A stretch of DNA of 64,000 nucleotides from Aceticella autotrophica (GTDB taxonomy: Bacteria > Bacillota > Thermoanaerobacteria > Thermoanaerobacterales > Thermoanaerobacteraceae). The translations under genes were made by a program, and so were the position numbers. Within the stretch, counting starts at the first letter, position 1, and each line of letters starts with the position of its first letter. Where the stretch lies: the NCBI RefSeq assembly GCF_017357865.1, contig NZ_CP060096.1, forward strand, positions 1,364,001 through 1,428,000, read 5' to 3'. Positions 40,109 through 46,035 of the stretch are shown piece after piece. A model generated the notes under the pieces. The model ran no database searches. It was not told the origin of the DNA and saw nothing but the letters and a program-made list of their open reading frames with translations.

Positions 40109-40802
40109 CTATATTAGCACAACTGCTATATTATAAGACCAATGAAGCAAAACACAAGGATGGATACTTTTCGCTCGTGTTGCTATTAATCCTAAGATTA
40201 ATCCAAGCGGAAAACGAATAAATAAATTAATCTCTATATTATCATTAGCATGAAATACAAATGCAAAAATCAAAGCATCAATAACTATAGAATAATAAAC
40301 ATTAAAAATTTTCTTGAGTTCTTTTAATATTACACCCCTTACAAGAATTTCTTCTGACAGTCCTACAGCAAAGTTATGTAAAACCAAAATATAAAAAAGA
40401 GTTTGTCCGATATGGAAAATACATAATATTGAAGCAAGTAAAATTGCAAACGAAATTAACATCCAGAAAATATAAATTTTATTTCTTCCATATACCAAAC
40501 CAATGTTATCAAACGACTCTTTTCATACACCTTCTCATATAAAACTGGTAGTAATCCCAAGAAAAATATTACTGGAATAGAGAAAAAAATTATCACATCC
40601 TTTAGAGAAGTAACTTTATTTATGTCTAATATAATTGGTCTATTTAAAAATATAGAAGTTATAAATAGAAATACAATAAGAAGAGCAATAGGAATTACTA
40701 TTAGAATAGATATTTTTACGCTTTGCGCAATTAATAAATCCCAAAACTCATTAGACAACATTGAGGGTTTATTAAAGTTTTCTTTATTTTCTCTTTAATC
40801 AT
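40109..40802 (-). pseudogene. CPBP-family intramembrane protease-like protein, broken by two frameshifts
   Basis: The ATG at 40802 follows AAAGGTAGG and reads MIKEKIKKTLINPQ, then loses frame near 40762. The next frame continues MLSNEFWDLLIAQSVKI with two helices and loses frame again at a four-A run (40523-40520). The last frame reads on through ESFDNIGLVYGRNK to the CPBP motifs LSEEILVRGV (Glu-Glu), FVFHAND and LLHWSYN. One extra A at each break gives a single 231-aa frame with all conserved residues. Members of this family process or give immunity to bacteriocins, or act on prenylated proteins. It lies 18 nt after the permease stop. Confidence 0.85.
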
Positions 40803-41015: not shown

Positions 41016-41029
41016 GAGTCCACTCGGAA
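41016..41029 (+). repeat. Left terminal inverted repeat of the IS
   Basis: GAGTCCACTCGGAA, the inverted copy of 42911-42924. CTAG precedes it at 41012-41015, the target duplication. Confidence 0.9.
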
Positions 41030-41183
41030 AGAGCTTATCTACAGGTTAAAAATTTTTATCATCACAAAAATTATCAGAATAATCTCTATTTAACTAAATA
41101 TATATGACTTTGTTATTGATTTTAATATGTATGTTCTGCTTTATTGATCTGTTATTGCTATTTTTAATCTCATTAACCATTCT

Positions 41184-42767
41184 TTAAGCCGTTTTTGGGC
41201 AGACTTCTCCCTTCTTAATTTGTCTATTAGAAATTTTAGAAATATGTTTCATTATTACTTTGATATTATTGTTTATTGCTACCATTATCATTTGCCATCT
41301 TATTTTTAATTTCCCTCTATACCTTCCTTTACGTCCGCCATGCCTGGTAAGTTCTGATATGTTTCTTTCTACATTCGGTCTTTTTGCATAGTCTTCTTTA
41401 AATTCATCTGTTTTTTGATATTCTCTTTGTTCTTGTATCTCTTTTTCATATGGATGTATATTTATTGTTCTCCCTTTTTTTGATTTTGTACATTGGTCTT
41501 TTAGCGGACAATCATTACATTCTTCTGCTCTAAATTTTACTGTAACTTGCTCATGTTTTTGCGTTTTTTCAGTATCAAATTGTTTTATGTGTCCGTTGGG
41601 ACATTCTACTGTTCCTTTTTCTAAATCAATTTTGAATTCTTCTTTTGAAAATCCTCCACTTGGATTTGTTGCTTCCGGTACTCTAATGCAAAAATCTGTT
41701 CCTTCTTCTTTCCTTTTTTCTATTTCTTCAAAGTCACTATATGCACAATCTCCATACAGTTTATCTATATCAACGCCGTTTCTTCGGCTTTGTTCTATAA
41801 GATCACTCATATGTTCACCATCTGCTATATTTGCTCCATCGACTTCTATTCCTACTACTACTGAGCCTTTTTCTCCTCCTGTTATAATTTCAGCTTTGTA
41901 TCCATCTGATAATTTCGATGAGGTCTTTCTCCCATGGCGCATTTCGTCATCTACTACTGATATTATTCTGTCTTTCGCTGTTCCTTTTATCATTTTTACA
42001 TGCCCATCGTTTGTTATTTCAACATCTTGTAATGCTATTCTTTCTAATAATTCAATTGCTTTTTTTAAATCATCTTTTATATCTTTTTTTGTTTTTATAT
42101 TTTCTACAAGTAATAGTGCATCTTTAACAAGTTCTTCGAGTAATTTTGCTTTTTCTTTTTCATTTTCCCATGCTATTTTGGGTTTTTTGATATTTTCTTC
42201 ATAATCTGTTCTTTTCAGTATTTTTTTTGATGCATCTTCCATTTCGTAAAACTTCATGAAACGGAGAACCATCTTTATCCCTTGGTATATCATAGTGTAA
42301 GTATCTTGTCTGGCACAAGAGCCCCAAATCATGAATGAATCTATTATATGTAAGTTGTCTTTATTAAACAGTCCTACTTCTTTTGCCTGACTAATTGTTT
42401 TAATAAATATTTCTTTTCCTATTTCACTGTTAAACAGTCTTTTTCTATGATCACATAATGTTACTGCATCTATTCCATCAAAATCCCGTGGTGCGGTTAA
42501 TGCATATTTAATTCTATCATCGAATCGTGATTCTTCTTCCATTTCACGATCAGAATATCCTTTTTCAAATTGTATCAGCATCGCTGTAAATGTATATACT
42601 GGGGATATGGATTCTCTGCCATAGTATGAGAAAAGTGGCTGAAACATTTCTTCATTAAGATTATTAAATACCCATGTTCTTAATCTATGATAATAACTTA
42701 CTTCAGAAATTTTCCCAAGTAACCAATAATCTGAAAATGACATTTGTCTATCTGCTTTTCCTATCAT
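41184..42767 (-). CDS. IS1182-family DDE transposase
   Basis: The ~527-aa protein starts MIGKADRQMSFSDYWLLGK and has the N-terminal DUF772 domain (FQPLFSYYGRESISPVYTF...YSDREMEEESRFDDRIKYAL). The catalytic acids fit VVDDEMRHGRK, LYGDCAYSD and RPNVERNISELTRHG (the DDE set of the family), and CNDCPLKDQC gives a Cys-rich block before the last one. I use the ATG at 42767, preceded by GGTGAT; the longer frame would start at GTG. Codon use is AT-rich like its neighbours. It transposes the element by cut-and-paste. Confidence 0.93.
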   Translation of the reverse strand: MIGKADRQMSFSDYWLLGKISEVSYYHRLRTWVFNNLNEEMFQPLFSYYGRESISPVYTFTAMLIQFEKGYSDREMEEESRFDDRIKYALTAPRDFDGIDAVTLCDHRKRLFNSEIGKEIFIKTISQAKEVGLFNKDNLHIIDSFMIWGSCARQDTYTMIYQGIKMVLRFMKFYEMEDASKKILKRTDYEENIKKPKIAWENEKEKAKLLEELVKDALLLVENIKTKKDIKDDLKKAIELLERIALQDVEITNDGHVKMIKGTAKDRIISVVDDEMRHGRKTSSKLSDGYKAEIITGGEKGSVVVGIEVDGANIADGEHMSDLIEQSRRNGVDIDKLYGDCAYSDFEEIEKRKEEGTDFCIRVPEATNPSGGFSKEEFKIDLEKGTVECPNGHIKQFDTEKTQKHEQVTVKFRAEECNDCPLKDQCTKSKKGRTINIHPYEKEIQEQREYQKTDEFKEDYAKRPNVERNISELTRHGGRKGRYRGKLKIRWQMIMVAINNNIKVIMKHISKISNRQIKKGEVCPKTA

Positions 42768-42910
42768 TTTTATCACCACATTTTTTTTATATTATTTATA
42801 TTATACCATAAAAAATACCTCTTAAGTGCTTATTTCGTGTGTGTTTAGGAGTATTTTTTTTGTAAATTATATGGCTTTCAATAACATATTTGTTAATTTA
42901 TGATTGATGA

Positions 42911-42924
42911 TTCCGAGTGGACTC
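42911..42924 (-). repeat. Right terminal inverted repeat of the IS
   Basis: On the minus strand it reads GAGTCCACTCGGAA, identical to the left end. CTAG follows at 42925-42928. Confidence 0.9.
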
Positions 42925-43522
42925 CTAGAACTTTCATTAAAATTATTAAACCTATGGACAGAAGATTGGTTTTATAAACACCAAAAAATAACGACAGCAA
43001 CATAGTAATCATAATTAACAAAGCAATTTCAAATATTGAAAGAAGAGGTATATACAAAAATCTTGAATACTCTTTCCCTAAAAACTCATTAATTGCAAAT
43101 TTTGTATTATAAAGAAAAATATAATAACTGATTATGCCGGAAAGAATAACGAAAAAGATAAAAACTATCAGAACAGTTAGGAGAGCAAGCACCTTTGACA
43201 ATATTATTTTTGACCTATTTTCTGACCTAACAAGCAGCAAACTTAAATTACCCTTTTCCAATTCATTAGCAAATGTTGAAGATGTAAATATAATAAATAT
43301 AAAATAAAAGAAAAATAGGGTTTTTAAGAATCCAAACATCATAATAGCATATTGGATGGCAGAAAATTTCTCTCCACTTATCGTTAATATACCACTTCCC
43401 GTTTTAACAAGTAATCCAAAAAGCAGGGGAACAAAAATGGATATCAATAAAGACCAAAAAACATCTTTCCTCTTGGATAATTTATATAATTCTATATAAT
43501 AAAATCTCCTCATCACCTTCAC
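42925..43522 (-). pseudogene. ABC transporter permease, 5' part (interrupted by the IS)
   Basis: The first 198 codons of a permease: MKVMRRFYYIELYKLSKRKD, an ABC-2-type N-terminus, then about four to five membrane helices, ending LLSIGLIILMKVL at the CTAG where the element inserted. The truncated frame runs 11 codons into the IS before stopping at 42893. The ATG overlaps the ATPase stop (ATGA), so the pair was one transporter. Without the final two helices the protein is unlikely to work. Confidence 0.9.
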
Positions 43523-44406
43523 TGCCCTTTCATATAAAATAATTCCAATAAACTTCCCCTTTTGATATCAATGTCTAAAATATCAATATTTTGATTATAA
43601 AGTTTTCTTAATATGTTATTTAAAATACCCTGTTTCTTTACAATTAAAACATTATCTCTTAAATCGATATAATTATTTATAATTTCATCTTCAAAAATAT
43701 TTTTATTAAACTCTTTATTAGAGAGAATTAGATAATACTCTTTTTGTTTTACAGCTTCTTTAGGAATACCATCATACAATACAACTCCTTCTCTTAGCAA
43801 AATTACTTTATCACATATTTCCTCTACATCTGGCAATTGATGGCTTGAAAACAAAATACCTACCCCTTTATTTTTACTTAAATAAACAAGTTTTTCTTTA
43901 AGTTCATTAACACCAATTGGATCAAGGCCTACCGTTGGCTCATCGAGAATTAAAAATTGAGGGTCATTCATTAGTGCTTGTGCTAAGCCTAATCTTTGCT
44001 TCATTCCAAATGAAAAGGTAGTTATATATTTATTTCTTACTTCCCACAAACCGACAAATTCCATTACCTCTTGAATTTTCTTGAGATTATAGTTATTACT
44101 TGCAATCATTAAAATTTTTAAATTTTCTAAGGCAGTTAAATAATCGTAAAAGGCAGGTTCTAAAAGTAAACCAATATCCTTTATCACTCTACCATAATTT
44201 TGAAATAGATCATAGCCAAACAGCTTTATACTACCTTCTTCAGGCCTTAATAATCCGGTGATGCATTTAATAAATGTTGTCTTTCCTGCACCGTTTGGTC
44301 CTACTAATCCTACAATTTCACCTTTTGAAACTTTTATACTAACATTACACAGTACAACTTTTTTACCATATTTTTTTGTTAAATTTTCTACACTGAGTAT
44401 CTCCAT
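43519..44406 (-). CDS. ABC transporter ATP-binding protein, BcrA-like
   Basis: The 295-aa ATPase has Walker A GPNGAGKTT at residues 36-44, signature SFGMKQRLGLAQAL, Walker B FLILDEPTVGLDP and the switch His in ILFSSHQLPDVEE. The C-terminal ~80 residues lie outside the core. Such ATPases pair with ABC-2 permeases and often serve self-immunity to or export of bacteriocins (BcrA, NisF, YydI types). The substrate here is unknown. The gene is intact although its permease partner is not. Confidence 0.9.
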   Translation of the reverse strand: MEILSVENLTKKYGKKVVLCNVSIKVSKGEIVGLVGPNGAGKTTFIKCITGLLRPEEGSIKLFGYDLFQNYGRVIKDIGLLLEPAFYDYLTALENLKILMIASNNYNLKKIQEVMEFVGLWEVRNKYITTFSFGMKQRLGLAQALMNDPQFLILDEPTVGLDPIGVNELKEKLVYLSKNKGVGILFSSHQLPDVEEICDKVILLREGVVLYDGIPKEAVKQKEYYLILSNKEFNKNIFEDEIINNYIDLRDNVLIVKKQGILNNILRKLYNQNIDILDIDIKRGSLLELFYMKGQ

Positions 44407-44424: not shown

Positions 44425-44530
44425 TCAATATCTACCTAATCTACCGCTTTTTCTTGCGTAATTATACATACTTTTATATAAAATGTACCCTAAGAAACTC
44501 CAAAATAAAAGGAAGTACTTTAACTTTCAT
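44425..44530 (-). pseudogene. Relic of a ~34-aa single-helix membrane peptide
   Basis: The 160-nt gap before the ATPase gene contains a frame that reads KLKYFLLFWSFLGYILYKSM, then YNYARKSGRLGRY and stop (44425): one membrane helix followed by a basic tail. No start codon lies in that frame; the ATG at 44530, with AGAGGAAGTG upstream, is one base off (AAA in place of AA after ATG). It may be a broken small immunity or accessory peptide. The evidence is one plausible helix and composition, so this is tentative. Confidence 0.35.
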
Positions 44531-44566: not shown

Positions 44567-44854
44567 TCAAAATGGCAAAAATTTTTTAAAACTTCTTTTG
44601 AATTTATAAGCAGCCTCTCTATCTAAGAAATATTTTCCATCAGGACATCTATTCAAAACTCCATATTTTAATAACTTTCTAATAACAAGGGGAACAAAAG
44701 GCTTTAGCAAAAGCTTAACAATAGCATTTTTAGCATATTCAATTTCATTCAATGCTAAAGCTTTTTCACAAGAATAAGCATCTTTTTCTTCAAAAAATTT
44801 TATATATCTATTCTGTAAAAAAATAATAACTTCAACACCACCAGAAGAAGACAT
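44567..44854 (-). CDS. Hypothetical 95-aa protein of the island
   Basis: I do not recognise this protein. It begins MSSSGGVEVIIFLQNRYIKF, has an Ala/Lys-rich helical middle (EIEYAKNAIVKLLLKPF) and a segment LKYGVLNRCPDGKYFLDREA, which resembles the wing of a winged-helix fold, and ends in a basic tail. It has no signal or clear membrane helix. AAGGAGAG lies 5 nt before ATG. It lies between the four-helix protein and the ABC genes in one apparent operon, so it may serve the same system; that is inference. Confidence 0.6.
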   Translation of the reverse strand: MSSSGGVEVIIFLQNRYIKFFEEKDAYSCEKALALNEIEYAKNAIVKLLLKPFVPLVIRKLLKYGVLNRCPDGKYFLDREAAYKFKRSFKKFLPF

Positions 44855-44871: not shown

Positions 44872-45306
44872 TTAATAAGATTTTTTAATAAATTTACCAA
44901 TTTTGCTACCAATGAAACTAAACAAAACAGCAATTATTATAAATATAAACAGTCCGCTTATTAAATTGCCGACCCCACTAATGTGTATCTGAACTGCCGA
45001 ATTCTGAGACATCGAATTTAACCTATCAATAAACTCTTTTGAAGAAAAAACTGGATTAAAAAACAACATAATTATCTCAATCGCCAAAACAATTATAATA
45101 TTAAATCCTATCACCTTTATTAATCTTGTCGGATTTAATAATCCATTAATAAATGATATTATAGCAACTGTTACTAAAGGACCAAGAATGGTTAATAATG
45201 TAAAAGTTAAAAGAGTTAAAGAGTCTTTAATTAATACACCTATTGTTAAAAGAAGTGTTATAATTAGTATAGCTGCTATCCCTACAGCATAATTACTTCT
45301 TTGCAT
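44872..45306 (-). CDS. Hypothetical membrane protein with four helices
   Basis: The 144-aa protein has four hydrophobic segments (residues ~7-26, 30-54, 63-84 and 110-134), joined by short loops; the loop before the last helix is polar (FSSKEFIDRLNSMSQNS). It ends KIGKFIKKSY. I do not recognise the family. A GGGGGG ribosome site precedes the ATG. It is the first gene after the stem-loop behind the small peptide, a position often held by immunity or transport proteins in bacteriocin operons. Confidence 0.65.
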   Translation of the reverse strand: MQRSNYAVGIAAILIITLLLTIGVLIKDSLTLLTFTLLTILGPLVTVAIISFINGLLNPTRLIKVIGFNIIIVLAIEIIMLFFNPVFSSKEFIDRLNSMSQNSAVQIHISGVGNLISGLFIFIIIAVLFSFIGSKIGKFIKKSY

Positions 45307-45336: not shown

Positions 45337-45364
45337 GCATACTCCCCTTATTTGGGGAGCATGC
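45337..45364 (-). promoter_or_regulatory. Stem-loop between the peptide gene and the island operon
   Basis: An 11-bp stem (GCATGCTCCCC on the minus strand, 6-nt loop, GGGGAGTATGC, one G-T pair). No U tract follows, so it is not a standard terminator. It could protect the short upstream transcript or reduce readthrough, as hairpins behind bacteriocin precursor genes do. Confidence 0.55.
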
Positions 45365-45409: not shown

Positions 45410-45515
45410 TTAAAGACCCCAGTTGTCATTGCAATAACCTATGCTTACACAAAAAAACTGCACCTATACTTACGCATCCTGTCTTTTTGTTTCCTTTAGC
45501 AAATGCAAATAACAT
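45410..45515 (-). pseudogene. Small Cys-rich peptide gene with a frameshift in a 7-T run (possible bacteriocin precursor)
   Basis: An ATG at 45515 follows GGGAGGTGTAAGGAG, a very strong ribosome site. As written it encodes 29 aa, MLFAFAKGNKKTGCVSIGAV and nine more (FLCKHRLLQ), stopping at 45426. A run of seven Ts (45457-45451) splits a repeated block: removing one T continues as FCVSIGYCNDNWGL to a stop at 45410, giving 34 aa with Cys at 14, 22 and 28 and the unit CVSIG twice. The CVSIGAV block is faintly like CSIGAAC of subtilosin, but no radical SAM gene is present and I claim no family. It leads an operon with ABC and CPBP genes. Confidence 0.5.
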
Positions 45516-45540
45516 TACTCCTTACACCTCCCTCTCTAAT

Positions 45541-46035
45541 CTTTAATCTTCCTCAGTTAACTGATTATTTATAATATTTTACAATGAAAGATTTTCCAGA
45601 AATAATGTAGCATTTATTTTTATCTTATACAAACCTTAAATATTATCATATTTATCCAATTTCAGCTGTTTTTTTTTTTTTTTTTGAATTATTTCATTCT
45701 TACTTTATTTTACTCTGTTTTTCTTTAATTTTCAAAATTTTTATGTATTTTTAAGCCTTTTTGTGATACTATATTTTTATTTTTAACATAAATTTTACAT
45801 TATATATTCTTGAATTTTAAGCCTATTTTATTTTAATATTATTACAAGACATGGTGCACTGCAATCTTTTTTATCTATCTCAACTGTTGAATTATAATAT
45901 TTAGAATTATTTTATTCTTTACAAAGTAAAATATTAACTATATATTAAAAATATGTATTCTCCTTTAATCTGATTTGTAAATCTTCTTCTTTTAAAGTTA
46001 CAGACGGATATGGTATTGAATTTAAGAGAACAATC
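45541..46035. other. AT-rich gene-free stretch with a 17-T tract
   Basis: No ORF with a ribosome site is seen. The stretch is extremely AT-rich and includes 17 Ts in a row (45669-45685). Promoters for the leftward peptide operon must lie here or close by, but I found no convincing -35/-10 pair. At its right end a plus-strand frame reads FKVTDGYGIEFKRTINAFTL before a stop; its last five residues equal the end of YraN. Confidence 0.5.

Follow-up and report, generated by a model that had tools for sequence, protein, structure and literature searches.

Does Aceticella autotrophica 3443-3Ac still produce a small cysteine-containing peptide whose gene is interrupted by a run of seven Ts? The gene lies in the 64,000-nucleotide stretch of the chromosome analysed here (hereafter the window), and decay, slippage at the run, a sequencing error and a chance reading frame could each account for what is read there.

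A peptide gene broken at a T-run

The initial annotation had placed a peptide gene at 45410-45515, and a gene is found at exactly these coordinates on the minus strand (Table 1). Its ATG, at 45515, lies 3' of GGGAGGTG (45532-45525) and AAGGAG (45523-45518). As it stands, the frame encodes 29 aa and stops at 45426, and the T-run (45457-45451) comprises 7 T. Followed across the run, from 45515 to 45410, the frame has no other lesion and reads MLFAFAKGNKKTGCVSIGAVFCVSIGYCNDNWGL. It contains an exact five-residue repeat, CVSIG, as had been claimed; a repeat of this kind occurs in 0.0003 of shuffles of the same composition and is thus rare by chance.

Table 1. Features of the peptide locus in the window, listed from the control region downstream (positions are those of the window).
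Feature	Positions	Strand	Remarks
Repeated promoter element	45568..45700	-	-35-like TTGTAT 45632-45627, 17-nt spacer, extended -10 TACATT 45609-45604; promoter by consensus only
12-bp palindrome TCAGTTAACTGA in leader	45553..45564		Different palindromes there in other element copies
Ribosome site GGGAGGTG..AAGGAG	45518..45532	-	GGAGGTG conserved in both relatives
Precursor gene, broken	45410..45515	-	29-aa frame as written, 45426-45515; 34 codons and stop followed across T-run
T7 run	45451..45457	-	T6 in both close relatives
Hairpin, 11-bp stem, between peptide gene and next gene	45337..45364	-	z -4.9 and -5.4; kept in A7A
144-aa membrane protein, open	44872..45306	-	Homologous proteins in relatives' clusters
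95-aa protein of unknown function, open	44567..44854	-	
Radical-SAM gene start remnant, joined to permease B tail	44509..44530	-	Deletion junction near 44509
BcrA-type ABC ATPase, open	43519..44406	-	
ABC-2 permease 5' part, cut by insertion sequence	42925..43522	-	
Insertion sequence, 1909 bp	41016..42924	-	Ends GAGTCCACTCGGAA, CTAG duplication; transposase 41184-42779
CPBP protease pseudogene	40109..40802	-	Two single-base deletions

A scan with the 144-aa neighbour retrieved two Thermoanaerobacter loci, one in strain A7A and one in T. thermocopriae. Both carry a peptide gene at the same place, with an open 34-aa frame and the same start, frame, stop and ribosome site. The initial annotation would have been refuted by relatives that lack a peptide at this place, and the gene passed that check. 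Finer details of the prediction are particular to the window: the relatives' units are only similar to CVSIG (CISVG/CVNIG), and although three cysteines and a C-terminal NWGL are present in the window frame as described, the relatives conserve only Cys14 and Cys22, and neither the third cysteine nor the exact NWGL end. Relative to A7A, dN/dS is 0.84 for the peptide and 0.18-0.31 for four neighbours, values drawn from few sites; the high value for the peptide could reflect diversification of its core.

In A7A the genes behind the peptide gene encode, in order, a membrane protein of 149 aa, a protein of 96 aa, a radical-SAM/SPASM enzyme, two ABC pairs, of which the second corresponds to the BcrA-like genes of the window, and a CPBP protein of 231 aa. 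The T. thermocopriae draft has the 96-aa gene and some ABC genes broken. Both clusters place a radical-SAM enzyme with a SPASM domain beside a short precursor, the arrangement by which a radical-SAM-modified RiPP cluster is recognised; at the window locus the enzyme gene has been deleted. Here a deletion of ~2.8 kb has removed the enzyme together with the adjacent ABC pair (the putative exporter) and leaves the opening codons of the enzyme gene fused, near 44509, with the end of permease B; permease A carries the 1909-bp insertion sequence. The BcrA and CPBP neighbours named in the initial annotation are recognisable in what is left. No ortholog of the radical-SAM maturase was found in the A. 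autotrophica genome, where the best match covers only part of the enzyme, at 29% identity. Among the genomes compared in an earlier study, A. autotrophica 3443-3Ac had the largest share of IS-related genes (PMC10213532).

A precursor family marked by twin cysteine units

Searches with the enzyme led to more distant clusters. A tblastn search of plasmids found a homolog, 38% identical, on a plasmid of Streptococcus salivarius, with a 36-aa frame, MLKFSTKKTKKAGCVSVGALVSVSIGHYIKEVKSTV, upstream of the enzyme gene. An insertion of lnu(C) and ISSag10 interrupts the radical-SAM gene on this plasmid (NZ_CP018188, L058:4852-7825), and the 36-aa precursor frame carries no annotated gene. Genome searches added three enzyme loci, 43-45% identical, in one thermophile genus of the class, which we take to be Caldicellulosiruptor. 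Precursors stand three in tandem at each of two of these loci, and a single degenerate one is present at the third. In one such region (L064:5022-8598) a homologous radical-SAM gene is split by two transposase gene copies, with three precursor frames upstream.

The eight distant precursors, from three thermophile genomes and the one S. salivarius plasmid, are 35-44 aa long. They were located by listing the short frames that lie upstream of the enzyme and have a ribosome site, a strict motif scan having missed them. Two C..hG units are present in six of the eight; in the Streptococcus peptide Ser replaces the second Cys, and the remaining peptide is degenerate. The same fraction (6/8) matches C[IV]x[IV]G-x(2-5)-Cxx[IV]G, and shuffles of each peptide's own composition match in at most 7e-5 of cases, a fraction that flatters the motif because the expression was written after the peptides had been seen. 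By BLAST, CPBP homologs are shared by the S. salivarius cluster and both thermophile clusters compared; the membrane protein has homologs in those two thermophile clusters, and the S. salivarius cluster yielded no match to it.

A profile built from the eight distant peptides, with the Thermoanaerobacter sequences left out, put the window frame at the top of 4434 frames taken from the window and from stretches of its own genome (E 2.5e-7; next frame, E 0.45). A profile that includes the Thermoanaerobacter rows matches one place in the A. autotrophica genome and, among 398 genomes sampled from the phylum, only this genome and two known cluster holders. In NCBIfam, a search with eight family members, including those of A7A and S. 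salivarius, at E up to 10 returned only one unrelated match (0.17), and the 29-aa window frame had no match. Pfam had none for the two Thermoanaerobacter precursors alone; the intact precursor gave one chance antibody match in the PDB (E 0.83), PHROGs yielded nothing useful for the small proteins, and viral contigs held no relative of the enzyme. The CVSIG repeat marks a precursor family with no label in NCBIfam, and it was a case of ordinary decay that led to it.

How does this family compare with known systems? Sactipeptides such as subtilosin A, thuricin CD and streptosactin likewise pair a small Cys-containing precursor with a radical-SAM/SPASM enzyme, transporters and a protease, whereas the present clusters have twin C..hG units and a CPBP protease. 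The enzyme does not qualify as a maturase of the subtilosin (AlbA) or StsB type, scoring far below both curated cut-offs (87.7 of 850 bits for the AlbA model, 129.8 of 625 for StsB). The 16 streptococcal RaS-RiPP subfamilies named by motif also combine short precursors with radical-SAM enzymes, and one of the clusters found here is on a Streptococcus plasmid (PMC13361665). Those subfamilies are described as Rgg-linked (PMC13361665), whereas LytTR and GHKL genes lie near the cluster on the S. salivarius plasmid; there may be overlap in motif between the two. Thuricin CD-like clusters with radical-SAM and ABC genes have been reported from the related thermophile genera in T. mathranii and C. kristjanssonii; these have TrnC/TrnD-type enzymes and, in T. 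mathranii, a GG-motif peptide, and are set apart here by their description rather than by sequence (PMC3132745). We tentatively suggest, at somewhat less than an even chance, that twin-C..hG peptides, a radical-SAM/SPASM enzyme and a CPBP protease together constitute an undescribed RiPP family that extends from thermophilic Clostridia to a streptococcal plasmid; its peptides would have two equivalent cross-linked units and would be processed by an intramembrane protease.

Decay and its alternatives

In the intact relatives, the adjacent radical-SAM/SPASM enzyme would cross-link the short peptide, probably at the cysteine of one or both C..hG units. The cross-linked peptide would then be trimmed, with the CPBP protease as a candidate, and exported by an ABC transporter, while the BcrA-type transporter and small membrane proteins could confer tolerance; a bacteriocin is the likeliest product. 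In A. autotrophica this route is cut at several steps: T7 disrupts the frame, the deletion has taken out the maturase with the ABC pair next to it, and two other genes are broken as well. With all of these lesions combined, it is very unlikely that the mature product is made, and we regard it as highly probable that the window gene is the decayed remains of a precursor gene from a cluster for a radical-SAM-modified RiPP. Counting against this, three neighbouring genes are open and the frame has no second lesion, so either inactivation or selection was recent.

Could the peptide nevertheless be made? U7 runs can slip, and the initial annotation had raised slippage as an alternative to death of the gene. 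Some full-length peptide would then be produced and modified in trans by another radical-SAM enzyme; the frame does stay open across the run, and a second radical-SAM/PqqD-like locus exists in this genome at 1204.5-1206.5 kb. A gene that depends on programmed slippage would show a slippery run that is conserved and needed in relatives, but both carry T6 and stay in frame without a slip. In the window the deletion has removed the cognate enzyme as well as the ABC pair beside it, and the other radical-SAM enzyme is the partial match of 29% identity. The T6 of the relatives and the dismantled pathway argue for decay over programmed slippage, which was rejected, and we consider such a rescue very improbable.

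The extra T could also be an artefact, leaving an intact precursor in an otherwise truncated cluster. Homopolymer errors are a known fault of Nanopore reads, and such reads were used for this assembly. They were, however, corrected with 1,648 Mb of Illumina sequence (PMC10213532), 86 A/T runs of at least 7 occur within the window's long open frames, and the deletion and other lesions stand regardless. A sequencing error is thus improbable and was rejected as the main cause, the cluster being dismantled either way. Least credible, to the point of being negligible, is that there is no gene and that a chance frame follows a good ribosome site. Short frames arise easily by chance and dN/dS of the peptide is high, but the start, frame and stop are conserved in relatives, the family motif recurs beside enzymes of 42-44% identity, and the window frame is matched by a profile built without its close relatives; a chance frame is contradicted by this conserved family and was rejected. 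Decay of a genuine precursor gene remains the preferred reading.

The control region

Homology of the window with its relatives ends at 45531, inside the ribosome site. Farther upstream the relatives carry a gene for a GAF-LuxR regulator and, twice, an inverted repeat (ACTATAC or ACTATAT, TTTT or CTTT, and GTATAGT, in that order); the paired repeat also precedes radical-SAM loci in two sister-genus genomes and at 1206.6 kb in the A. autotrophica genome. In place of this LuxR-type region the window has a promoter-like element of ~130 bp, found in 24 copies in its own genome and preceded by an A-tract whose length ranges from 6 to more than 30 bases. Most other copies lie in front of genes for peptides with a double-glycine leader (around 1221-1252 kb) or proteins with a signal peptide (around 401-425 kb). 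The peptide operon therefore sits behind a predicted promoter common to other bacteriocin-like genes of the same genome, and the shared element possibly defines a bacteriocin and secretion regulon. One island of A. autotrophica has been reported to carry bacteriocin and C39 peptidase genes, and a different one lactococcin 972 (PMC10213532).

Four different perfect versions of the leader palindrome occur among the copies (CATCCGGATG, TCAGCCGGCTGA, TCATTCGAATGA and TCAGTTAACTGA), so its symmetry is kept while its sequence changes, for which either selection or palindrome-correcting mutation could account; an Rfam search of the leader, up to E 1, returned nothing. At its end the copy at ~1068.0 kb has CTAG and then GAGTCCACTCGGAA, which is also the end sequence of the window's insertion sequence.

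Elsewhere on the chromosome, the second radical-SAM locus (~1204.5-1207.4 kb) encodes a PqqD-like protein and a LuxR-type regulator, and a 66-aa frame after its enzyme may be a precursor. At ~1099.0-1099.5 kb (L057:6002-6530), a truncated GAF-LuxR regulator and paired inverted repeat with no radical-SAM gene behind them form an orphan control module, 92% identical to that at 1206.6 kb.
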